Of a DNA stretch of 64,000 nt, positions 473 through 43,810 are shown piece by piece. The stretch is from Phorcus lineatus (lineage: Eukaryota > Mollusca > Gastropoda > Trochida > Trochidae). Position numbers and translations under genes: made by a program. The notes under the pieces were generated by a model, which had not been told where the DNA came from, made no database searches, and saw only the letters and a list, made by a program, of their open reading frames with translations. The stretch lies in NCBI GenBank assembly GCA_921293015.1, contig OV121081.1, positions 46,339,877 through 46,403,876 of the forward strand, written 5' to 3'. Numbering within the stretch: the first letter of the stretch is position 1; every line of letters starts with the position of its first letter.

Positions 473-3400
473 TTCGCTGGTTGGACAGAAACAGCAATGA
501 AGTGACAGAGACTGGCGGTCGTATGAAGATAGAAGACTATGGTCGGAGACTCGTTATTACCAACACTACGGAGAATGACGAAGGAGAATACACGTGCATT
601 GGTATCAACACCCTCGGAGAAAAGAGCGAATCTATGTACTTGAACATCACATGTGAGTTGTTCCAAAACATTGGGAGTTTTTTTGGTCACATTTTTTTGC
701 CACCCTTCTTCATCAGCATATTTGTATCCTCGTTGTTTAGACACATATCCTTATATCCTTCAGACCTGAATGCTATTAATTTTTTTCTAAATAATAAATT
801 GTAAGTTTTAGGAGAAAGCAGTAAAGAAGCGACTATTGTTTGTCATCTAAAGGGGAAATGTTATCTTCCATTAACGTTTTTTTTATTGTTTTTGTTTAAA
901 ATCAGTTATATTATGTTACTATCTGTAATTATTTTCATAGTTGGTTTTAGGAAAAACCGTAGTATATATAATACGTCGTGTCAACTACAGGGGGAATTAT
1001 TGTTCTTTAATTTTTTTTATTTCGAATTTATTACTTTTCTCCTTAATCGACACTCCAATTATCCCTTTGAAGATGACCGCTGTACGACACGGGATCGCAT
1101 TATATCGAATTGTTACATACCCTAGACCTCAAACATAGATATTAATAAACTACCGATAACATAAACAGAGGGTGAGATAGGGTTGAGTCTTCTGTATGAC
1201 CGGTAACGGTTATGCTGGTTTCCTGACTCAGAAATGCTAACTTCAAAAGAATCGCAGTTTCAGTTACCGGTCTCAGGGCAGACCTCACCCTGTCAAACCT
1301 TGTTGAAATATGATACAGAATGGTTGCCAATGTATATGCTTAATCGTATCTACATTTAGGGTCAAACGCGTTTGATAGCAGTAGCGTTAACACTGAGTAA
1401 ATGGAAAAACTAACATATGTCCACAAAGCTAAGAAAAGGGAAAAGCTATTCATAGCTTATATCGTCCCCATCGTTTAAATGAAGCATTTTGACAAAAAAA
1501 AACCGTTATTCTATAAGAACTTATTTTGGCATAATAAGAAACAAGTTCTTTTTATTTCATGACGACCCCTTGCTGAAAATAATAGTTTATAAAATATACT
1601 ATAGTAAAAATGCTCTATTTATGAAGCTCGTCCAATCTGGGTACAACCCCCAAAGTCGCAGACAGTGATAGAAAGAAATGACGTCACTTTCACATGCATA
1701 GCACGTGCTGCAAGTGGAGAGAATCCTCCTGCCGATCCAGTATGGTTCATAAACGGGGACCGCCTTCAAGAAAGTGAGTTAGTTACACGGCCTTAGTTGA
1801 GGTATGGCCTTATTCTGCTCAAAGATTTGGGATTTTTTTTTATTTTCAAGTATTCACATTACATGTAGTTTCCTTTATATATTATGCATCCTGTAACAAT
1901 CTTTTCATATTGAATTAATTATCTCTCTATATACTATAATCTATCGTGAACTTTTTATATATTTCATTAGTAAAATTCATACATTAACAATCTCCATCAA
2001 AGTTGTGCATAAAAGTAGATATTTGAAAGATGTGTTAATTTAGCAAAAGAATATTGAAACTTAAAACGATCTTACAATCTAATTAAATTAGATCCTATTC
2101 TATAGATCCTATAGATCGGATTTCGGCTGAATTATGACCTTATTTTAATAAGAGTGTCTTATTGCATCGTTTTGATCTTATTGAAGTTCGGTTTTACATT
2201 CTTTCTGATCATACCATAATGTGTCCCTTTTCACAATCAGACAAAATACATTGCAGTGGTTTTTTTTTTTGGCCTTCGGAGAACATTTTAAAGGGTTAAA
2301 CCAACATACCTTCTCTGGCCAAAGGCCATGTTTAAGACGATCGATTTGGTAATTACTAAAGATTTTGTTTGTTTTATATCTTCATGTAGTGTTCAACCTG
2401 AAAGAAGTACTTTGATATTAATTGCATCTTTGTTTATTCAATGCCAATAGTTTTATCAAGTCATTGAAAATCGGCTTTAACATCATGGGAGCGTAGCGAG
2501 TGTTATTGAAGCTATGTTTACTTAGACTGACAGAAAGCAATAAGATAATCTTGATAGCCAGGAATGAAACTGCACATAGCTTAACATGCTTGATTGCGAT
2601 AGGCCTACTGTTATTTCTTGAATTTCAAATGGATGAATGTATTTTCACCAGATGACACAAGACTGGTCAGTCCCACAACCTTGTACCTTATATCTGTACT
2701 ACGGGATTATGATTTGATGAATGTCCAGTGTTTGGTGGAAAATGAAATTGGGACGATCTTTCAAGACGCGTTTCTAAACATCTTGTGTAAGTATGAAGCC
2801 CTCATAAAATATTTAAAGGTTGCATATAATGCGTCGGTTTGAATAGGCCCTATTAAGGATACTGTATTCAAACGTATGCGATTATGCAGGAGCATCTTCC
2901 AACGCATGGTCTATACATGCGCCTTAATTTGTCTAAATAACCTTTTGGTGATCCTTCAATGTTTAAAATATAATCCGTAATGTGCCTTCGGCAAAAGTTG
3001 TAAAAAGTTGATTTATCATAAAATGAAGCACGCGTAAAATAGATAGTATTTTCACAGTGCCGATCCAGTTCACGGCCAAGCCACCAATGGTGATTCGTGT
3101 AGAGAAAGGCGACCTAATAAACCTCACAGTGGATGCCTACACCGACCCAAGCCAGAAACTAAGCTACCAATGGAGTTTCAAGGGGTCAGATGTCCAGCTG
3201 CCTCGCCCTGGTCACTTCCTTAGTCACGACTCCCGGACACTGGTCATCAACACGACCCTGCTCTCTGATGACCAACTGGATGCTATAATGGGCAAATACA
3301 AATGCCTTGTCAGTCATACCTACGAAAGAAAGTGGGTTCAGGTTCTAGTCAGGAAACGTAGGTGGAGTTTGTTTTTATTGAAGCCTCTTATTTCATTTTT

Positions 3401-5932
3401 CGAAGAGGATTGGCCACGTAAATTAGCCATCTATTTAAATTTAGATCAACACTTTTTTGTATAACGTCATATTAACATAACCTTTTTTGAATGCAATTAT
3501 CATACGACGGTTTACATAGAAAGAGGCACAAGAAGAGTTAATAAAATTAATTGAGAGAGATAAGAATGTGTGAAACTTTGCAGATACTTGAAATTGCTTC
3601 ATTGTTACATGAACTTCGACTCCATTGATCATATTTGTTTCCTTTGTAATTAATTTCTGGTACTGTTTATTGGATTATATGAAATGTATTTTATTACTTT
3701 TTGTTAAGTTCACCCCACCTACATGAGCGTTAGTGTTTACAGTAGCTTTCCCACATATACTGCGATACTGATTCCCTATTTGTAAACTCATTATGGATCT
3801 TTCTTTTAATTACGGATATGGATAAAAGTATGGCATTTGAGTCCTTCAACCTCATCGTTTAAGTCTTCTATACACAGACCTCCTACAATACCCTGGTACA
3901 ATACCCTGATAATGCTACATCCCTCATATAATTAACGTTTACCATTCAATGAAATAACTCTCATCTAGCAATAGCGGCACCAACCGGATAACAGGACGAT
4001 GAGTTCGAGATCTTTTATTCAATTTCCTTGCATAAGGACATTAAATTAGCTAATAACCAGCCTTCAGCAATACAAGGCATATAAACCCTGAAAGATATCA
4101 GGGTATCATAGGAGCACTATTGATAGGCCAACTAATAAGCTGATTTAGTTGGATTGAGTCATTCATGTCTAATTACCAAAATTCTTCGACCTCGATTTAT
4201 ACGAATACGATCACTGATGCTACAAAGCGAACGTCACTTTGCAGCTCAAATAAACACGAACATCAAGATTACCCAACAACCAGACGCTATCATTATGATC
4301 GACCACGACGACGTTGTCAACATGACAGTGACAGCAATAACAGATCCGAGTCTTCAATTGCGGTTGCTATGGAAACAAAACGGCGTGAACCTGCACTCTA
4401 ACCAACGTCCAGAGTTTTCCTTTAGCGAGGACCTAACCACATTGACCATTAACACGACCTCCTTGACCGATGAGGGGATGACCAATGTCCCCGGTGTCTT
4501 TGTCTGCACGATCAACAACTCTTTCGAAGAGGTCAAGGTTGAGGTCACTGTCAAACTCGTGGACGCACCTGTCACTGAAGGTATGTCCACTTCTCTGGAA
4601 AATACGAACCTTTACAACCATGTTTATCAAATTTTACAATTTTGCAATTGATTCAATACCAAATTATTCATATATGTGTGCTCCTTAAGTGTATGCTAAT
4701 CAATGTTCTCACGCTACGGTTTCTGGCAATCGATCGGAAATTGAAATAAGATTCCATTGTACCAATACTTGTTCTTTATCAAGAAAAGGCTTTTCATACT
4801 ATTTTGTTCTTTATAAAGAAGAGGCTTTTCTAACAATTGTGTTCTTTATCAAGTAAAGGATTTTATTAAATTGTGCCATAGTGTCTGAATACTGCTGATG
4901 ACTAGAATGAACTCCTATTCCAAGTACGTTGAATGGCTTCTATGAACATACCTTTTATGTTTAGGGGCGGTAGTAGTGAAAGCCTCTAGCGATTTCTGGG
5001 TCATCGCCGTCGTTCTCGGTATCCTTATCCTTGTGGGCGCTGTTCTTCTCGTCGTCTTCGTTCTCAGACATCGTTACCCCAAGCGAGTTTATCTCCGTGA
5101 GTTTTTTCTTCATATTTGATTCATGACACAGGTTTTAATCTGAGGCCCGTGCTTTTAAAGGCTTCTGTAGTTATTTCTTCCCACATAACATTTGTTTCAA
5201 GTGTTTCCGGTTTCATAAAGAAGGCAGAAGTATCTCGAATATGTAAGAAGATTTTAGATTGGACAGAAAAAAAACCTATGAAATAACGGTGGGATTGGGG
5301 CTTTCAAAGAGTATTTCACTTATATCGTGGCTGCTAGTATTATTGCTGGGAGAAAGCCCGCAGCATCCATGTGGCTATGCATTGCGGTGAAACCTGCGAG
5401 CACCGGCTGGAACTAACGAACCCCTGGCGGGATTCGAACCAAGAATAACAGTTTCAAGGTCTCATAGCTAAGTGATTATGACTGATCCTTGAAAAGTCGT
5501 CCACTTTTAACAGAGGTTAGACGAGAAGATAGAACTGAGTAGCCTCTTTAGAGAACGTAGTATAGTATCTACCATTGTAAAAGGAATTGTGTTAACATAT
5601 AAGCTTGACAGCATGTTCAGTTATCCTAATTTATTTTTCATGAAGAAAAAGAAATTTTGAACTCAACCACTAGATATCTATTAAATCATCTCGGCCTGGT
5701 TTACGTGTCTTGGATTATTTTGTTGTGTATCATGGAAAATAATCATGGATTAATAAATGTGAAGTTTTTCAAATCATCGATTAAATCTTGTATTTTTAAC
5801 GATAAACTGATGACTTTGTTTTCAAGCATTTAATAAAGATTTCTGTTTTCTGTTGCAGTTGAGAAAAAGGAATTAAAAAGCAAGCTGAACCCAGAAAAGG
5901 ATGTTGAAGACGACCACTTTCAAACGATGTAG
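473..5932 (+). CDS. Immunoglobulin-superfamily cell adhesion receptor, L1/neuroglian-like (5' end missing)
   Basis: Seven exons join in phase: 473-652, 1627-1773, 2652-2786, 3058-3357, 4245-4580, 4965-5096 and 5859-5932 (TAG at 5930). Every internal border is phase 1, as is usual for Ig-domain exons. Exon 1 ends an Ig fold (DEGEYTC then GINTLGEKSE). Exon 2 opens a new one (FTCIARAASG, then PVWFINGD) and exon 3 closes it with its second cysteine (VQCLVENEIG). Exons 4 and 5 each encode an Ig-like unit with a shared TDPS..L...W core, so they look like tandem duplicates; exon 5 has a second cysteine (FVCTINNS). NxS/T sites such as NLT, NTT and NMT suggest an extracellular, glycosylated region. 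Exon 6 encodes one hydrophobic helix (FWVIAVVLGILILVGAVLLV) followed by RHRYPKR, a stop-transfer pattern. The tail is 23 residues and acidic. L1-family members normally carry fibronectin-III repeats between Ig and membrane; none is seen here. The acceptors of exons 1 and 2 are the weakest. Confidence 0.78.
1165..1295. repeat. Imperfect inverted repeat in the Ig-gene intron
   Basis: A GACCGGTAAC stretch near 1198 is mirrored by GTTACCGGTC near 1262. Outside these, GAGGGTGAG and CTCACCCT are also complementary. The layout fits a small fold-back element lying in the intron between the first two visible Ig exons. Confidence 0.35.
5286..5450 (-). repeat. tRNA-derived SINE, family A, partial copy
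   Basis: The copy shares its body (CTTTCAAAGAGTATTTCACT, ATTATTGC, GGGAGAAAGCCCGC, GCATTGCGGTGAAACC) with copies at 49319, 51381, 51911 and 56629. It keeps a reverse-complement B box (GGGATTCGAACC) near 5430 but has lost the A-box part of the head. It lies in the intron before the last exon of the Ig gene, in the opposite orientation to the gene. Confidence 0.65.
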
Positions 5933-21309: not shown

Positions 21310-24300
21310 ATGGCTGCGCCCATCGCAAAACGTGCAGTTGTCAAAACTGCAGTGGAATATTCTCGCAAATATCTTGTCCACTTTGCGAGTGAACATATTG
21401 ACTTTAAATTGCCTGTTTGTTGAATTACATTATTATGTTAATTTTTTTCGGTGGTTGAGAAATTGGTGTAGATCATGATTAATAGATCTTCGTATTGCTT
21501 AACTTTACTGTAACTGTAGTTCAGATAATCTGAATTTCGGTTCGTGTGAGATGATTGCGCATTGTTTAGAGTCTGAAGCCTATTTAATTGAGAAGGGTTT
21601 TGCCTCCTAAATCAATAAAAACAAAAATATCCAACATCAATACACATGGATAATATAGATAAACCCTTTGACTACAGTACCGAAACAGTGTTTTGTTTTA
21701 GAAAATTTACCGAAATTGCGTACTTTGCAAAAAGCTCTTCTTAAAGTTATATCTTGAAGTTCAGTAATATAAGCCTCAGGGAAGAATATTGATTTAACAC
21801 TTGAATAATGACATAGGTAATCTGAAGATGTTCTTTGAGAATGCCAAGTTTGTGAAAATATATCTTTCAATCGCTGCTTAAGAACAAAGGTGGAAAACTT
21901 ATCATTTCCAACATCATGCGATAACCATACATGTGAAAAACCAGACATAAAAAGAATATTTCTAATATCAGACACCCAAGAAGTGTCTGATCTTTTCAAC
22001 ATATTATAACAATGTAAAGGTAGTCTCGCAGAATTCATGCGAATAATCTTTATCCAGTACTTTACAGCTCTAAGTTGAGATGAACAAATAAATTTGTGCG
22101 GCCTGTTTCTCCTAAAACAGCCTTATTAGAAGCATATTTACCAATGCCTAAGAAACGTTTGAAATATGCGGTATGGACATTTTCTATAGATTCATTATAT
22201 TTTACACCCCAAATCTCAGATCCATAAAGAAGGATTGGTGCGATTTTTCTGTAAAAAATCTTACAAACCACTGGAAAGGTTATAAACTTATTTTCTTTCA
22301 AAACATTATATACTGGAATAAGGGCTTTAGATGCTTGCAAAGCCAGCTGATTACAAGCTACTGACCAAGACAATCAAGAAGACACAGTCAATCCTAGATA
22401 TTTATAATATGTCACAACATCAATATTCTTATCACAATGTGTCCATTTTTCAAACTTATTCAAAATACCACCTTTCCTGAAAACAATAACTCCTGACTTC
22501 TTAAGATTTACTTCAAGGCCCCATTTCACACAATATAATTGAAGAACATTTAACTGTTTCTGAAGACCACTAACTGAAAATGACAGTAAGGCAAAGTCAT
22601 CAGCAAAAAATAGCAACATAATATCAACAATATCTTGGGAGACAAACACTCCGTAATCCCATTCTTTATACATTTCTGTTACAAGTTCATTTATAAAGAA
22701 AATAGAACAGGACTGAGCACACAGCCCTGACTAACACCTAATGAAGTTTTGAAACATTCAGTGACTCCACTCGTCCGAATACAGGCTTTAACTGAAGAAT
22801 ACATGTTTTGTAAAAGTAATGACAATTTACCAGTTAGCCCTTTCTTGATAAATAAATACATCATCTTCTTTCTATCTACATAATCAAACGCCTTTCGGAA
22901 ATCAATAAAGGCACAGTAGAATCTCCCTTTAGGCTTACTTAGATACTTTGTACAAAGAGCTTGTAAAATAAATATATTATCTGCTGGTGAATAGCCAGGT
23001 CGAAATCCAGCCTGGGATTCTGATAACAATTCGTTTACATCCAGCATTGCTATCCCCTGCCCAAGGTGGCATCTGTCATTGTGAAATGAGGGGTTTCAAT
23101 GCCTCTAAATAAAAGGGAAAAGGAAGAAATGACAGCAGTTGGATATAATAGCCAAAGGGTTTATCTTTTCATCTGTGTGTCCATTGAATTTAGATGTTTA
23201 GATTTTATTGATATAGATTTTAAAACTGAATTAATCAAATTAATTGGGAAGCTGCTGCAGCTAAAATAGGCCTTGGATCCTAGGCGTCAAAGTTGTTACA
23301 TCTCTAGATTCCAGTTGAAATGTTTTCGTTAACCCTGTAGTTGAATAGAGAACAAGTTATATGGATTTACAACTTCTTTATTTCAGGATTGCGACGTTTC
23401 GGTGTAGATGCTAACACCGTTATCAAGCAAGTGATAACAGTGTTAGCATCTACACCGAAACATCGCAATCCTGAAATAAAGAAGTTGTAAATCCATATAA
23501 CTTGTTCTCTATTCATCTCACCAACTTCTAAATGCCTCTCAAAGAAGTCAACCCTGTAGTTGTCTGAAATATCTTTTGTAATCATTCTAACCCTGACAAG
23601 AATTGTTTTATGTAATATTGTTTCTATATTTGACAACTTTTGGAAAGGACATGTGATAAACCAATTGCCATAGAATAATCAGATTGAGTTTTTGCAATAT
23701 ATTGATAAATGTTTGATGTAAATTTCTGTCAGATAATAAGTTAACTATTATTTATTATTACTTTTTCATTATGAAGGTGGAACATGTGTCTCCGATACAA
23801 TTAGCTTCACAAAAACATTCCCCTTTAATATCCAAGTCCTGTTGTAAATAAAAAGTTGTACTGGTCCGTAAATAAGTTTTTATCATCTCAATCAAAAATT
23901 TTGTTTGCCATCCTAATTTATGGAGATTGAAATTGAAATGTTGCCACCATCTTTGGTGAGTTTTGACGTAAAACAGCAAGTTTGATAAAATAATTCATTG
24001 CAAATATTATGTACATCTCAGAAAATGTATCAACAAATTCTTGTCATAGGTATACCCTTAAAAGGTCTAAAAATTAGTCTTCAGGCATCTAGGATTTTAG
24101 GAAAAAGGGAAAAAATCTCACGACTACATTACCAACCTAACTAGTCTATGACAATCTTCATTATGAATAAGACTATATGACCAAGATCTAACGTTTAGAA
24201 GTTGGTACATTGAATGAAAGGATTTAACAGTGCTCAAGAATTAAATTCAACCTTTAGTTCAGAAAAATAATTGCAGATATTTGATTCTCGTTTATGAAGA

Positions 24301-34967: not shown

Positions 34968-37900
34968 ATGACGATTATAGACGAAGAGAAGAAAGAGAGT
35001 ATAAAGACTGGCGTCATAAATCCGGTATGTAAGATCAAATCTAACACCAAGCTAATAAAATGATTTTGAATGTGTTTGAAAACATTCTATATCCCTATCA
35101 TTGACATTTATTTATCATTGAGCAACCGTGATCTATGTATTCACTCTTCTTAGTTGAGTTTCAAATACTGGTATATTCAAACTTCTTAAAGGGATGCACT
35201 CGATCCCGTTATTCTTAACGTTTTATTTGGTGTTAATAAATTTTAAAATAAAAATATCAATTCAAGACGTCTCACATATGCAAACGCAAATGCAATATGA
35301 TACAGGTTTTCAATGAAAATCGAGAATTATCCTACATATGCAGAAGCCGAAACCACCAATCGGATTAAAATAAAATAACTGATTCGTTTCCTATTCATCT
35401 ATTGGGTTGTCACTTTCACTTATTTATCTCATTGATGAGTGACAAGCGATAACCTAACACAAGACTATCATGCGAAGAGAGATAGCACAGGGGAATAATT
35501 ACGCGACTCTGATCGAAAACCGGACGGTAACGCATGTCAGTTAGTCAATAAGTTTTTGGACCTTATCTTTAGAAGAAACAAGATTTGAGTGAATGGTGTA
35601 TGGCTGGTTATATGAAAAGTATCCGTGTAAATTATACGTGGAATTTCGGCTACAGCTGAAAATTAATAAAGGTCGTGTTTTGTGGCATTTTTGGGGATGA
35701 ACATTTGAGATGTTTTGAATGAATCATTGTCTCCCAAAAGAGGTAGCTCCGTCGTAACTTCTTATACAAATTTATAATGGAGCTACGTCTGTTGGGAGAG
35801 AATGTGAATGAATATCATCATAATTGTTTTTTGTGTGACATGTGTGAAAGCAAAAGAAGACCCCCGACGATCACAAGTTTAACATATACTTTTCAGCAAC
35901 ATTAAATACTTCTGAATAAAGTGACTCCATTGATAGCGTTCCGCAAATGTGACGCAAACAACAACTGGAATGTAAATGGGATCCGAAATGGATTTTGTTT
36001 GGAATGAATAGAAAGTACTCATCAAGTATACGACAAATATTTACATGTAGTTTGACCAATCAGAAGGGGGTTGTGTTTGGAGGTTCTCATAGGTAAATGT
36101 TTTAATGAACGCTAATTACGTTGGATTCATAAGCAACCTCAATAACTTCGTCACTAAATCTTGTTTCAGGTTCAACGAACTCGTGTTGGTAAAAAGGGCA
36201 AAGGTAAGAATCCAAGATTTGACGAAATAAGTTGAAAAACATGTCTGGTTAACTTATTGACCAAAGTTACGAATAATTATGTAAGTAACATTAGATGCGG
36301 CTATGCGATCCGTCTGATACAACATTTTTTAGACATCAAGCAACGCCAGAATGAATTGAATCAAAACTTATTTCTTTTACATAAGCCTTTATGTGTTGGT
36401 AACCATGTCGCCTCACTTTATTAAAGGTATACTCTTTGCTTTATGACGTCTGATTTAGTTTTTATACGACACCTATTCTCGTCGACATGTACCCGTCGAC
36501 TAATTTCATGTCTCACCGAGATGTAGATGAAAAATCTTAAGGAAAGTCATACGTATTTCTTTTGATGGCTACATTTGATTTGACTTTGCCAACTTATGAT
36601 GTGATTGATTCAACTAATGTTATTAATTTATTATATTTTTATCCTGAATCGTATCACTATAAATACCAAATTGCCAAATATTAGCCATTTATTGACTGCA
36701 AGCCTTTCAAACATTATTAACTCTATTCTGTCATATGTCTGCTTATGATAAGTTTCCCAAATTACGTTTGTCTAATTGGGGTGCATCGGTCGTGAAGACT
36801 TTCGACTTATTGCGTATATATGGTGACTTTATCGAGGCGATAAGCATTTAAACAATTCTTGAAGAACCGCTCCGTGATTTGTTGGAGTCATATATGCCAA
36901 ACTTAATCTATGGTGTCATTTGATCGCGAAGTATCTACTGTTACCAAAAAGACACATTTTCAAGCTTGTTTTTTTTTTACAGAGATAATATGAAGGTAGA
37001 ACGTCGCAATTATGATCGAAAACCGGACAGTGGCGCGCGTCAAATAGTCAAACGTAACTTTGGAAACTTTTCTAAAACAGCCAGGAGGGCAGTTAGGAGC
37101 TGATAGGGTTTGTTAGGTTATATAACTAGTATCCATTTATATTGGACGTTATATATCTACACCTCTGTGCATTTATAAGGCTGTTTTTAGATTTTAATGA
37201 AAAACCAGTATTTGTCATATATATGTCTTTTGGATATGAAAAGTAAAGATGTTTTGATTTTATATCACCACATATGACATTTAGGTTCGTATCAAAGGTT
37301 AATAATATGTTTTGAAAATCACGGAGTGGCTCTTTAACAGCATAAGTCCGTTCGCCTTGATACCGGTAATAGCGATTGGTAGGGTGGCTCCAAGAACTCG
37401 CGGTGTCCCTTCAGATCAAAATCATGAAGAGTACAGCAGCAGTAACAGCACCTTAAAGCTTGAATAAACCGAACTATATGGTATCGACTAAATGGTTACA
37501 AGAACAATAACGACAATATGAAAACAGAGAAAGAACGTTCTGCAACGTGTAATATCAAACAATGTAAATTTCAGACGAGAATGATTCCGACAACCGGGAA
37601 TCTACAGAACCGGGAATAGAGGGAGACTTGAACTCGGACTCTGCGGAACTGCGTCAACATGCCTCGGACAGATTCAACACCGAGAGCTTTGAGAAGAAGG
37701 AAGAAGAAAGTCTCAACCTAGGGAAGTGTCATGGCGGCGAGCAGACGACAAAACACAAGAACACAAGCGTTTTCACTGACGTTTCTTTAACGGGGAGCAG
37801 ACACGTTCAGTCGTACCTAGTAGATTGCCATTCCGGGGAAGCTGAGAGGATTGAACTTTCTGAGCTCAAACCTGGGACATCTTACACAAAGGAGAGAAAG

Positions 37901-40624
37901 AAGTGTTTGTCCGACAGCAAATGCTTGGTGGAGTCAGAATATGAGGCGCGGAAAGGCGGAAAGCATATTTGTAAGCGAGGGATTCATCATGCGACGAATT
38001 TAGGCATCACGAAGCTGGGTGAAGACATATGCTACGATACTGACGACGAGGCAGAGACCACGCGCAGAGAACCGAGTTAGTGTATTTACTTATGATTAGT
38101 AAAACGTCCTTCAATACCTATACTTACTCTAAAACAAATAATCTAAGATTTATATCCAATATTTAAGAAAAACATATAAAACTAAACAAATGAGGATTAC
38201 TTCATTTCATCTTCTTTATTGCAAGACTGCCACGTTTTGGTGTAAATGCTAACACCGTTATCAAGCAATTGAGGTAACCGCGTCATAAACATGTTGGCAT
38301 TTCTACCGAAACGTCGCACTCTTGCAATAAAGAAATTAAAAATCAATATACCGCTTCCACATGCATCTAGACACCTTCTTAATGGCTCTCATTGAAGATC
38401 GTATAATACTGCTTGATATCATACTTATGTACTTTTGATGTGGTCTTGAGTTTGTTATAAGATTTGAATGTCCATCAACTTGTAAGAAAGTCGTTTACCT
38501 GCATATTAACAATGGACTTTGGACGTCGTGAGGCTACAGTGGGTCAAAATACAACAGATAACCAAGATGATCTGACTACCACAAAGTATTGGAGTCTGTT
38601 ATTTCATTGTCCCTTTTCAAAATAATGATTTACATAATTGCCTGTTATATTTCAGATAAGTTTAAAGTCGCTGAGCAACCTCAACCCGTTGCTGGTGAAA
38701 GGTTCAATATTCAGACGGGACAAACATTCCTAACCAACAGAAGACCAAAGCTGGACAAGTTACCACCATCGGGTCTTCCACCCCTTCGAAACAAGAGAGG
38801 TCTTCAGAAACTCCGAGACGATCAGTTAGCTCGTCACTCTGAGCTTCGCCGAAAGAGGCTTATCTGCAATCAGGAAGTCCGTGACCGTCAAGTCGATCAC
38901 AGAGAAGTGAATGCTTCATGAAGGAAAATGAAACTCAACATTTCAGATCACTAAAAATGTGAGAAAATATTACTCAAAATTAAAAAAAAAAGTTTTTGAA
39001 TGCCTCAGTATTTAGTTTATTCATCTATGATGTGCTTTGCAAATACAAATATTCCTTGAAGACTTTGGAGACTTGAATGAGTTTACCACGATAATAGGGT
39101 TACCACGATAACAGGGTCACTAGCCATACCCTTTATCAAGTCATATATGTGCTGATTCATAAATTATAGGCATACATTTGAAAAATGTATTAGTTCATTC
39201 CAATTATTATGACTTTGTATACGAAACATTACTATCACATAATGTAGAATATCAAAATATTTCATATTCGTAAATAGTTATTTTTATTATAAATATTCAC
39301 TTCTTGCTTTGCTCTGGTATTCCGTTTGACATAAACTTTTTTATTATTATTTTTTTTTCATTTTAGTTTGTGAGGAACCAAGAAGGAAACTATAGGCAGA
39401 GAAAGGTTTGTTTTTTCATGATACATGGTTATATTAATGTAATGTTATATCTTATATATTGCCCTATATATTTGATTTGGACAATAACATATAGCATATT
39501 GGCATATTTAAAAAGCATCTTCAACAGAATTAACCTAAATGAAGTTAAGATATATGTTTTCGTTAATAGTGACTATATCTAAAATTATGATCCTGTTTGC
39601 AGAGGTTTCTACCGCTGGATGTACCAGAGATTCCCACCAAAGTCCGCAAACAATCGAAAATACCAATTCCTTCTACCGCCTCCAAAATCAAGCCAGCGTC
39701 TTCAAAACTACCTGCACCTGCAAGATCTAAAGTCAAGTCTGCATCTGCATCAGCCAAGAAATCGGCCAAGACATCTTCCAAGCCTGCATCGGCCAAGACA
39801 TCTGCCAAGCCTACATCTACCACCTCGGAACTAACACCTGAAAGCTTGTTGAAAGTCCAGGTAACCTATTATCAGTTTTAATTTCTCACATCTGTGAGTA
39901 GTAAGTTGCTTTCAATTGTTATATGTGTAAGTTTTAGGAATTAATTATCATGTACACATGTTATTGTATATGATATTTCTCAACAAAGACGAGTGTCAAA
40001 TCAATTATCCCAGCTCATAATCAATTGTGACATCGAATTGATTAATGCAAACCTTGGTCAGTACATTACCATTACCAACATCTGATTCTTGAATTTTTTG
40101 TATTTATTTTGATATTACAATTGCAGAAGTACATTGACGGTTTGGACGAGGTAGCGAAAAGGGAGCTACTGACTAAGATGATCTTGCGGGATGACACAGC
40201 ACTTCAGACAGCAGTATCAGCCTTTGATGATCCGGATCCCCAGCCCCCTGCAGACCAAGCTCCAGTTAGGTGGTGTCATTGTGGGAATTGCAAGCCAATG
40301 CCCACAGAAGCCGAGAACAGGTGTTGTGTAAAGAGGGGAGGACAGTGTGTTACAACTAAAGAAAAGTTCAATCGTGTTGTTATGGATGAAGATGTTCTCG
40401 ACGCAGCCGGAGCCTACAGGAACGATTTATATGCCTACGACCATGTGAGAAATAATCGTATGTTTCGACACACAGCATACAGACAATTCATCCTGATGAC
40501 ATACGGTGTTTTGCGTGCTGGACAAAGGAAAGTTGTCCCTTCATGCGTGGTTTTAGCAATCAGACAACGTTACCCCTCTACAGATGGACAATACACAGGC
40601 TTTCGTTCAGCGCCTCTTATTTAA
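34968..40624 (+). CDS. P2X7-type cysteine-rich ballast-domain protein without a channel
   Basis: Seven exons join in phase: 34968-35024, 36170-36203, 37575-38075, 38656-38906, 39367-39405, 39603-39860 and 40127-40624, giving 545 residues. The first 380 residues are polar and probably disordered. They include an acidic stretch (DICYDTDDEAETTRREP) and an Ala/Ser/Lys-rich stretch with repeats of the type KxSAKTSxKPxSAKT. The final exon carries a helical lead-in (DEVAKRELLTKMILRDDTAL). It then has the module seen at the C-terminus of vertebrate P2X7 receptors: WCHCGNC, CC, GGQCVTT, a histidine-tyrosine HTAYRQF block, PSCV, and the terminal RQRYPSTDGQYTGFRS. In P2X7 this cytoplasmic domain binds zinc and a guanine nucleotide. 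No P2X transmembrane or ectodomain exon is visible, so it should be an intracellular protein. The start ATG immediately follows an acceptor-like AG, so an additional 5' exon may exist. Two donors (GTTAGT, GTGAAT) are weak but needed for frame. Confidence 0.83.
35715..35812. repeat. Short fold-back element, copy 2
   Basis: TCTCCCAAAAGAGGTAGCTC pairs with GGAGCTACGTCTGTTGGGAG around a loop near 35765. It resembles 34660-34745. It lies in the first intron of the ballast-domain gene. Confidence 0.55.
36866..37340. mobile_element. Uninterrupted copy of the TTAA-flanked miniature element (reverse orientation)
   Basis: From CCGCTCCGTGATTT on the left to TCACGGAGTGGCTCTTTAAC on the right, the sequence matches the reverse complement of the element at 6862-7696, minus its 350-bp nested insertion. 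The right end keeps TTAA and the left end has decayed. It sits in the intron before the 501-bp exon of the ballast-domain gene. Confidence 0.8.
38211..38335. repeat. Diverged copy of the 82-bp palindrome
   Basis: CTTCTTTATTGCAAGACTGC with CACGTTTTGGTGTAAATGCT is mirrored by GCATTTCTACCGAAACGTCG and ACTCTTGCAATAAAGAA. The arms are about 50 bp with several mismatches and a 20-bp loop. It lies in an intron of the ballast-domain gene and is homologous to 23344-23513. Confidence 0.8.
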
Positions 40625-40949
40625 TTTGTTATGTTCAAACAAAGAGTAGCCAAAAATAGATGTGATCCATCAAATATAATTGAATCCAGTACATGGATAT
40701 TTTATCATGCACAACAAATGTGATAAAATGGTATTCTAGAAGTTGGTAGTACAGTGAAGACAAGACATTTTATGGAGTGTCAACTTTTTTATTTATTCGT
40801 ATGTATATAAGAATAGAATCTTCATTTGTATATATGTATTAATCTTCATATGTATATAAGAATAGATTATTCAAAGGACTTGCATATTCTTACAAAGTTA
40901 ATGATTTTTTCTGTGTACGTATATATATTTATTCACATCTCCTATGTGT

Positions 40950-40986
40950 AATAAAACCACAACATCTAAATATATCAATAAATAAA
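40950..40986 (+). terminator. Polyadenylation signals of the ballast-domain gene, overlapping the convergent gene's 3' UTR
   Basis: AATAAA occurs at 40950-40955 and twice more at 40977-40986, about 330-360 bp after the stop. On the opposite strand AATAAA at 40933-40928 can serve the convergent gene, whose stop is at 40988. If both are used, the two transcripts end within a few tens of bases of each other and overlap antisense. Confidence 0.55.
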
Positions 40987-40987
40987 G

Positions 40988-43225
40988 CTAGCATACACTG
41001 TCCTGAGCTAGATTTACAGGTCCTGTTGAATTCTTCACTAATTCTACAATAGAATGTACAAAGGCTATACATTTCTTTGAAGATATTGCATCCAGGTAAT
41101 CCTCGCCGCTGTCAAGACCAGGCATAGGCTCGTTGTCATCCATGTCGGGCAGTGACATATTAAGGAAGTCATCTTGGCTGCTGATGCTGTCGATGCTCTC
41201 CCCAAGGGTGGCACTGTAAATATGATAATAAATTCACCATTTTGAATTCAATAGGTATTATTAATATTATTACAGTCTTATTACTATAGGGTGGGGATTG
41301 CATAATCTGTGATAAGAGTTATCAAAATTAATATGCATTCAACAAAGAATGTATTCTAAAAAGTTTAACTTCCTTACAGAAATTGTTTCAGGGAAAAGGG
41401 GAAAATTACAAACATGAGTCTCCTCCATGCCATTCCCCCCAAAAAAATCAGCTTTCCTATGCCCATATTTGAGCAAATAGTCATTACCGGTATTTGATGG
41501 TATTTGGTAAAATCCTTATTCAGTGTGACATTTTAATGTTTATTCTTATGTGCTCAGAGAACAGCATAAATCACATACCTGGTCAAATTGACAGCATCAT
41601 TCAACTCTTCCAAGGGTGAAGCTAGGTTGTGGTCAGAGAGATCTTCAAACTGTCTGTTGTAAAGGAAAATATATTTCTATATTAATCATATGCTCATAAA
41701 AAAAAAAATTAATTCATATAATCATGTGTGAGAAATTTTTAATGAAAAATTTCTTGATGTGGGATAAGTATATCCACATGCAGAATCTATGTGAATTCAT
41801 GTGAACAATACAATTGACAATAGGAATATTTCCAGATTTGTAACATAAACATACTCATTGCATGATGTAGGAACATCGTCAGTTTGCATGTCACTGGTAG
41901 GAGAACTCGGCATAGATATCAATGACAGATCTGAAAATTAGAAATCATTAGGTGATCATTAGGTAATATAATCATGTATGGCCATATATAGATTCATAAA
42001 AAATTAATTTCTGTCAAGGGCATAGAAACAGAATTTCTGTAATAAACATCTCCATGTTCATACTTTCTGTAAGGACCATAAACTAAATCATAAATTGGGA
42101 GGTAATTCAGAGGTAATTACTGAGATCTGTTGAAAATAATAAACTGAACAAAAGCAACAAAGCTCTGATAGTATCAATGAACGCTCTGACATCTAAACAA
42201 AACTCTGGTGTTGTGAACAAGGCCGAAGGCCCTGACATCATCAAACAATGCTTATATGACATAATTGATGGGAGTGAAATATATCCTCAGCAAATCTCAG
42301 ATATTCATAACTGTTTAAAATTAATGTTATTGATATATGCTTGATATCAGGAAAGACCTCTCTAGCATCTATATTGTATTTTATACCTTTGAAAATGTCA
42401 ATACCCACCAGCAACATTTCATATGATATCCAAATCTCGGTTTTTCTGAGGTGTGCTCACTGTTGGGAGCTTGAGACATTCTTGTTGGGGGGTTCTGTCC
42501 CACGGATCCCCCAGCATCTCAGGTGCTGGCAGGTCTGTTTTGGAACTGCAAATTACAACAATAATTGAATCAGTTAGTATACATATATGGACTATAAGGA
42601 AAAGGACATGAAAGACATTCAGTTTCATCAATATTATCAAAGTTGGAGATGATAAGCTCTAAAATGCTAAACAATATATGCCAGCATTAAAATTGAATTC
42701 TTACAATAATACTTGAATTATATTTATTTATTCGTTTCAATTAGTATTACTTATGGCTGAAATAAAATTATGATATATATGAACTTCAAATGTGTATTTC
42801 CTTACTATGCAGTAATAATTTTGGTTGAACCTATCTTTTCAATGCCCATCAAATTTTGACAACTACTGTACAGTACAGTTCCCTTCATTTTTTTCAAAAA
42901 CAGTCACTCCTTTATGAAATCATGGAATTGACATGTTGATAAAAGCAATTTCATCCAGAGAAATAACCATGTTTATATTAGCCTATCATGTGAACAACAG
43001 TAAAAACAGTTGTACTTACTTGCAGTCACATGTCAACTCATGGTTGTCAAGCAAATGCTTTGCCAGTTCAAAGTCCGTAAATTTCAGTGCCGATTTCAGG
43101 TCTTTCCATTTTTGAGCAAGGTCTCCCAAATAAATCCGCTTGGCATTTCTCTCTTGTTGTCGTCTCGCAGGCGAATTTCCATCGTACTTTCGCGGTCGCC
43201 CTCGACTTCGCACAACTTCACTCAT
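40988..43225 (-). CDS. Unrecognised protein with AT-hook-like N-terminus and acidic C-terminus
   Basis: Exon 1, 43225-43020, encodes MSEVVRSRGRPRKYDG, then a basic stretch with RNAKRIYLGDLAQKWKDLKS and AKHLLDNHELTCDC. RGRPRK is an AT-hook core. The WxxLKxxL...FAKxLLD pattern resembles N-terminal regions of uncharacterised metazoan DNA-binding proteins (recollection, low certainty). A candidate exon 2 runs 42545-42461 (PEMLGDPWDRTPQQE). Exons 41930-41855, 41653-41579 and 41213-40988 join each other in perfect phase and encode an acidic, serine-rich segment ending LAQDSVC and TAG. The junction from exon 2 to 41930 does not keep frame with any donor I can find. Either a small exon is missed, or exon 2 belongs to another transcript. 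The combination suggests a nuclear regulator, by inference only. It is divergent from the next gene and convergent with the ballast-domain gene. Confidence 0.5.
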
Positions 43226-43810
43226 AGTAAAACTCTTCTTTTTTAAGAAAGATATCTAAGTTACTTCACATAAAGTTTTTAATGTACGGAAAACTGCAGC
43301 ACTGTGAGTAATTTGGAGTGCGATAGTCTGGACGAATCTTTGTTTATATTGGGAAGCCGGAGCGAAGCCACTTTTCTCCTCAGTGTCATATTGATTGAGC
43401 TTAGCCATTTGAGATGTCATAATTAGTTATGCAAACATTATTTACATTATTAATCCCCAACAATCAAAACATCCAAGTAACTACAAGGTTACTACAACGC
43501 AGATCAATCATGCAGCGGACAACAATCTAATGGCCGCCATGATCGCAATAGAGTTAAGCCCCTTGGTAGTGCTGGTCAGTGGCTTCGATTGTTTTCGCTA
43601 TTTTTTTCAGTTTGAAGGACGGATTACAACTAATTACCAAACATGAAAAAGTTGTAAACACAGAAAATAGAAAACAAATCGAATATATAAAAAAGTTACG
43701 TGTCGCGTGCAAAAGGGAATTCCCTCCCGAATATTTGTGGAACAGAAAATACCCGGTCGAACTGGCCGTTTAAGAACAAATATAGACATGCGCAATCGAA
43801 ATCTGGGAGC
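43226..43810. promoter_or_regulatory. Likely bidirectional promoter between two small genes
   Basis: The start codons at 43225 (-) and 43811 (+) diverge. GGCCGCCAT at 43532-43540 is the reverse of the YY1 core ATGGCGGC, a motif common at promoters. No TATA box is evident. The 5' UTRs must lie in this interval unless upstream exons were missed. Confidence 0.45.

Follow-up and report, generated by a model that had tools for sequence, protein, structure and literature searches.

A P2X7-type ballast exon in the gastropod Phorcus lineatus very probably belongs to KolX, the second gene of a recently amplified Kolobok-type transposon

A 64,000-nucleotide stretch of the Phorcus lineatus genome (contig OV121081.1, positions 46,339,877 to 46,403,876; hereafter the window, in which all positions below are counted unless a locus is named) contains an exon, 40127-40624, that encodes the cysteine-rich ballast domain of the P2X7 receptor. 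We give a probability of about 92% to the reading that it is the last exon of KolX, one of the two genes of a Kol0-type Kolobok DNA transposon, and that the window holds a defective copy of this element. Kojima and Bao (2022; PMC9587614, cited here, like the other papers, from excerpts) reported that the second protein encoded by Kol0 Kolobok transposons, KolX, has the ballast fold, with seven conserved cysteines surrounding two zinc ions, and proposed that P2X7 was born when a P2X4-like gene fused with KolX. Both the kind of system and its link with P2X7 are already in print, and this genome adds one more family. New here are a very recent burst, a two-gene anatomy found over several families, an N-terminal cysteine exon that is conserved, and a copy number that greatly exceeds the fewer than ten genes per species reported for ballast proteins.

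The ballast match of the exon is far above chance. Its translation matched positions 68-192 of the Pfam family P2RX7_C (PF20478) with 121.6 bits, for a cut-off of 23.5, and solved P2X7 chains in the PDB (6u9v and others) at E 2e-20. The original prediction had recognised here the cysteine-rich module of P2X7, encoded without its ion channel, and both points hold; that the domain is present outside P2X7, also part of that prediction, is already found in Rump et al. (2020; PMC7016195). As read off the sequence, the exon follows an acceptor AG at 40125-40126 and ends with the stop TAA at 40622-40624. Seven cysteines of the 320-residue translation (C205, C207, C210, C221, C222, C229 and C295) were invariant in an alignment of six ballast sequences. 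In a ten-sequence alignment, some of whose entries are short or divergent, C74 (in its numbering) was the one invariant cysteine of the seven, five were nearly so, and the last was substituted in some rows. A role as zinc and nucleotide sensor had also been suggested: the zinc half fits these cysteines, and the nucleotide half is weak. When the five guanosine diphosphate (GDP) contacts of Rump et al. were counted by hand on the alignment with P2X7 chains, three (R546, H547 and R578) were kept, and R574 and K583 were V and S. H547, absent from invertebrates according to the excerpts of Rump et al., is thus kept in the window exon. A structure predicted from ten sequences was weak (mean predicted local distance difference test 66.9, predicted template modelling score 0.49), so nothing was drawn from it. 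Searching NCBIfam with the ballast and with the transposase described below gave nothing except one match far under its cut-off, and a protein search with the ballast, under length limits that exclude full-length P2X7, returned nine proteins.

The exon is repeated through the genome. The PF20478 profile gave at least 150 matches in the 958-Mb genome, which merged into 142 loci spread over many contigs; this is a lower bound, as 150 of 228 candidates were scored, and some of the matches are fragments or contain stops. Almost half of the scored matches (73 of 150) share the score of the window copy, 120.6 bits. When 17 other loci (L010-L026) were compared with locus L009, keeping pieces longer than 800 bases and leaving gaps out, 62,606 aligned bases held 4 mismatches. 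The segment 38904-41022 was matched at 100% over all its 2119 bases in 12 of 18 fetched regions, the other six matching over less length or at lower identity. For the cysteine-rich first exon of KolX, which is missing from the window copy, a genome search (150 of 156 candidates scored) found 122 matches, at least 84 of them full-length and 100% identical. So little divergence between copies that sit at unrelated sites indicates a very recent burst. It also bears on the free-standing host gene originally predicted at 34968-40624, which would encode a soluble ballast protein. Exons 39367-39405, 39603-39860 and 40127-40624 are indeed open and spliceable, and ballast-only proteins have been published for oyster, limpet and other animals (PMC7016195). 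We nevertheless consider such a gene very improbable, since the exon recurs 73 times at equal score, the first exon is found in full elsewhere, and the repeated unit has a sharp boundary and transposon ends.

That boundary was placed by a nucleotide search in which window 38000-38960 was the query (40 of 435 candidates scored) and which elsewhere returned either 38904-38960 at 100% or a short repeat at about 38200-38400 at 69-89%. Segment 38000-38903 had no full-length match among the scored candidates besides the window itself. The repeated unit starts at 38904, and the exons predicted upstream of this point therefore lie outside the KolX gene and the element. Of the low-complexity polar exons in that prediction, 39603-39860 stands, with its splice signals. 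In other copies the common block begins further left, at about L009:5349.

Complete copies have ends of the kind expected of a DNA transposon. Both carry ACGGCCAGTTCGA as a perfect 13-bp inverted repeat that adjoins TTAA at unrelated sites. Left ends were seen in 17 of the 18 fetched ballast regions (L012 being the one where none was seen), and TTAA preceded the repeat at 16 of 18 such ends. Among 12 loci found by their right end, nine showed both ends, and all nine, which are short copies without KolX, were flanked by TTAA on both sides; three of them share one flank, so they represent seven independent sites. TTAA at both ends was also found in two multi-kb copies that bear the ballast, L015/L042 and L016/L038. 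TTAA is the target site of the Kolobok superfamily. Searches with the right end (40 of 232 candidates scored) and with the left end (40 of 221) each gave at least 40 places at 100%, and pairing of their coordinates by eye yielded many internally deleted forms below 1 kb. The longest form of the element, obtained by overlapping copies rather than by assembly, is about 9.7 kb.

Segmental duplication that recently enlarged a host gene family would also produce near-identical copies, and some copies do lie in arrays: L021, L022 and L023 hold more than one each, and L044-L046 have one common flank. We regard it as hardly credible, given that left flanks differ at nearly all loci read and stop at TTAA in 16 of 18 cases, that outside the arrays flanks are not homologous beyond TTAA in the loci read, and that the copies occupy many contigs, are linked to a transposase gene and include short internally deleted forms with both ends. 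Adjacent copies in L021 and L023 share a single TTAA between their ends.

The linked gene lies on the opposite strand and runs toward KolX. A transposase piece from the window's family had 55 matches in the genome, at 53 loci; a ballast match lay within 8 kb in the convergent orientation at 44 of these, none was found within that distance at nine, and no locus showed another orientation. The chance of such pairing is about 0.0024 per locus. A ballast-fold (PF20478) second protein, encoded here by the partner gene, is a feature of the KolX-bearing Kol0 lineage. Combined with a second query, the transposase of locus L032, 56 of 101 loci were paired. Pairing was also seen among loci whose identity to the window-family piece is 62%, 44-46% or about 30% (not every locus in these classes is paired), and since pairing is kept across divergent loci, the association of transposase and ballast is old within this genome.

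The L032 transposase, 612 residues long, is encoded by an uninterrupted frame. It was aligned with 14 relatives, picked from 120 listed of its 175 homologues, and in these 15 sequences D288, D362, E512, D385xxH388, H444 and H449 were invariant, and C460 and H462 near-invariant (at least 90%). The family thus has the DDD/E residues with the C/DxxH motif between the second D and the E that characterise Kolobok, as well as a zinc-finger-like H2CH motif that lies between DxxH and the E (H444, H449, C460 and H462, assigned by order and not by profile). Relatives P0005, P0019 and P0021 contain PF20700 (Mutator-like transposase), and P0029, P0062, P0077 and P0112 contain THAP; Pfam found nothing significant in P0012. 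The DDE and H2CH features are shared with the Xenopus Kolobok transposases (PMC6004289), which differ in usually having a THAP domain, for which the L032 transposase gave no match; as that paper writes "usually" in its excerpts, we did not treat this absence as defining. Its main text, as far as seen in excerpts, contains neither P2X nor purino as a term. The transposase residues also bear on a piggyBac-type element with a KolX-like gene, which would share the TTAA target. It is extremely improbable, because the KolX-like genes of piggyBac have been reported without most of the seven cysteines, all of which are present in the window exon, and because Kolobok residues are present in the partner transposase, some of whose relatives contain PF20700 or THAP.

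Several observations weigh against a Kol0-type Kolobok element. The left end of L014 and one of the two in L022 are not preceded by TTAA. With a 4-bp TTAA target the termini are AC...GT and not the RR...YY of the Kolobok elements of Kojima and Bao; a 2-bp TA target would give AA...TT, which fits RR...YY, and the two readings describe the same letters. Assignment to Kol0 is made from the KolX partner, not from a transposase tree. Pairing was less frequent with the L032 query (72 of 220 candidates scored; paired with the scored ballast matches), for which 29 of 69 loci had a ballast match within 8 kb and 40 had none; many of the unpaired ones are short, stop-holding, decayed pieces. The catalytic residues were read in L032, which belongs to another family of the same genome than the window's element, and L031, a member of the window's family, keeps the regions of the first D and last E without the segment of the second D and DxxH. 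Other copies of the window's family, whose transposase was seen as pieces, match to residue 379, which covers the second D, and the matched stretch is interrupted by stops. Finally, a Pfam search assigned the L032 transposase to no family.

The window copy of this Kolobok-type element is described in Table 1. Its left 1.3 kb, as counted on L009, is missing, and with it the left end and KolX exon 1. Compared with L031, it lacks about 3.45 kb of the middle (L031 2599-6053), with a 7-base overlap at window 41016-41022, and this loss removes the greater part of the catalytic region encoded by the transposase gene. Having lost parts of both genes, the copy should yield neither full KolX nor transposase. 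The frame of exon 2 is continuous both with exon 1 of L009 and with exon 3. The transposase remnant corresponds to the match C1:46380873-46381085, 94% identical to residues 1-72 of the transposase piece, and the AT_hook match in the first transposase exon reached 15.1 bits, under the cut-off of 17.4.

Table 1. Features of the KolX-bearing element copy in the window
Feature	Positions	Strand	Basis or remark
Defective copy of a probable KolX-bearing Kolobok-type element	38904..43769	+	left end missing, loss in the middle, right end intact
KolX exon 2 (FVRNQEGNYRQRK), predicted from splice signals	39367..39405	+	acceptor AG 39365-39366, donor GT from 39406
KolX exon 3, predicted, basic Lys/Ser/Ala/Pro-rich linker	39603..39860	+	splice signals; open frame 39591-39881
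KolX exon 4, encoding the ballast (P2RX7_C) and its seven zinc-type cysteines	40127..40624	+	PF20478, PDB, alignments
Transposase exon remnant	40997..41209	-	truncated by the internal loss, at about 41016
First coding exon of the convergent transposase gene, predicted (MSEVVRSRGRPRKYDG..., AT-hook-like)	43020..43225	-	open frame
Right terminal inverted repeat ACGGCCAGTTCGA (minus-strand reading)	43757..43769	-	same letters end other loci
TTAA target site at the right end	43770..43773	.	TTAA flanks complete copies elsewhere on both sides

The truncated left side raises the question of whether a neighbouring sequence has captured the broken KolX. An open frame on the KolX strand, 38571-38921, runs across the 38904 junction and might be spliced at GAA|GTGAAT (38907) into KolX exon 2, making a fusion of host sequence and ballast; by our own reading, the splice sites of the putative 38906-to-39367 join are both in phase 0. 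The donor is weak, however, the copy may be too young for selection, and Pfam had zero matches in the upstream open frames 37568-38077 and 38571-38918. We grant this fusion a slim chance, and a slightly slimmer one to the idea that, with 38571-38906 joined in frame to 39367, the window shows a new natural instance of the kind of fusion from which P2X7 is proposed to have arisen. At about 38205-38400 lies a short repeat of inverted symmetry; it is also found near window 23367, and elsewhere at 69-89%.

In full copies, KolX begins with MASCQCNNTCSRSGKRGSCPCK..., followed by the basic linker and the ballast. Eight cysteines of the N-terminal domain were invariant in four aligned sequences. With this exon Pfam gave no match, and the best PDB match, caspase-2 at E 0.09, was taken as chance. 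The exon may resemble the CXC domains of EZH2 or tesmin. Over 115 codons of the ballast core, nonsynonymous divergence (dN) between two families was 0.15; the NG86 method gave no synonymous value (dS), which we took as saturation. Read in this way, the comparison suggests that the protein is under selection while the elements move. A complete element would hold its two genes, for KolX and a DDD/E transposase, on opposite strands and facing each other, and the transposase, to judge from its family, would move the element by cut and paste. Other DNA transposons have second proteins. By analogy with these, KolX could tentatively be a nuclear accessory protein of transposition that assists the transposase or the element ends, in which the cysteine-rich N terminus and basic linker would contact DNA and the zinc-filled ballast would provide a rigid scaffold on which other proteins bind; we hold this to be possible rather than probable.

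A search for P2X exons upstream of the ballast exon found none. All six P2X receptor matches of the genome fell on a different contig, at C15:33224454-33252096, and this single detected P2X locus has none of the 150 scored ballast matches within a megabase, so that no channel joined to a ballast, as in a P2X7 receptor, was found. The window exon shares with P2X7 (PF20478) the domain, the zinc cysteines and the three kept GDP-contact positions; KolX differs from the receptor by the lack of a channel, by the two changed positions of the GDP pocket and, in full copies, by the added cysteine-rich N terminus and basic linker. Zinc-coordinating cysteine domain (ZCD) proteins and NANOR (PMC7016195) are likewise short proteins of animals in which the ballast is C-terminal, but Rump et al. 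found ballast proteins across animals as one or few (<10) genes per species, compared with at least 142 merged loci here. The closest known system is Kol0 Kolobok with KolX, which has the same ballast-fold second gene beside a DDD/E transposase, TTAA targets and seven cysteines; it differs in that the present element has AC...GT ends under a TTAA target and copies that are almost identical. We found no mention of the window's family, nor of the N-terminal cysteine-rich exon of KolX, in excerpts of Kojima and Bao (PMC9587614). In a literature search, the term KolX occurred in that paper only, and Kolobok together with P2X7 also in PMC9319628 (one mention each); the main text of Rump et al., as far as seen in excerpts, has zero uses of the string "transpos".

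If the ballast copies are transposon cargo, the lone P2X7 tails of this invertebrate genome are explained, and counts, trees and synteny of "ballast genes" can mislead. One more genome, in which the burst is so young that ends and targets can still be read, supports the published KolX origin of the P2X7 tail. P2X7 is a receptor of inflammation, and a family recently active here is suited to testing the role of KolX. In the lungfish Protopterus annectens we observed ballast proteins, one of them named "P2X purinoceptor 7-like", and a related transposase (P0004, P0125 and P0012), so vertebrate annotations so named may also be transposon genes.

Elsewhere in the window, two plus-strand segments, 3027-3464 and 4139-4651, matched immunoglobulin-type domains (I-set, 33.5 bits, above the cut-off; Ig_3, 23.3 bits, below it) and are probably exons of a host gene. 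On the minus strand, 22691-23095 encodes part of a reverse transcriptase (RVT_1, 46.3 bits) and is a retroelement fragment.
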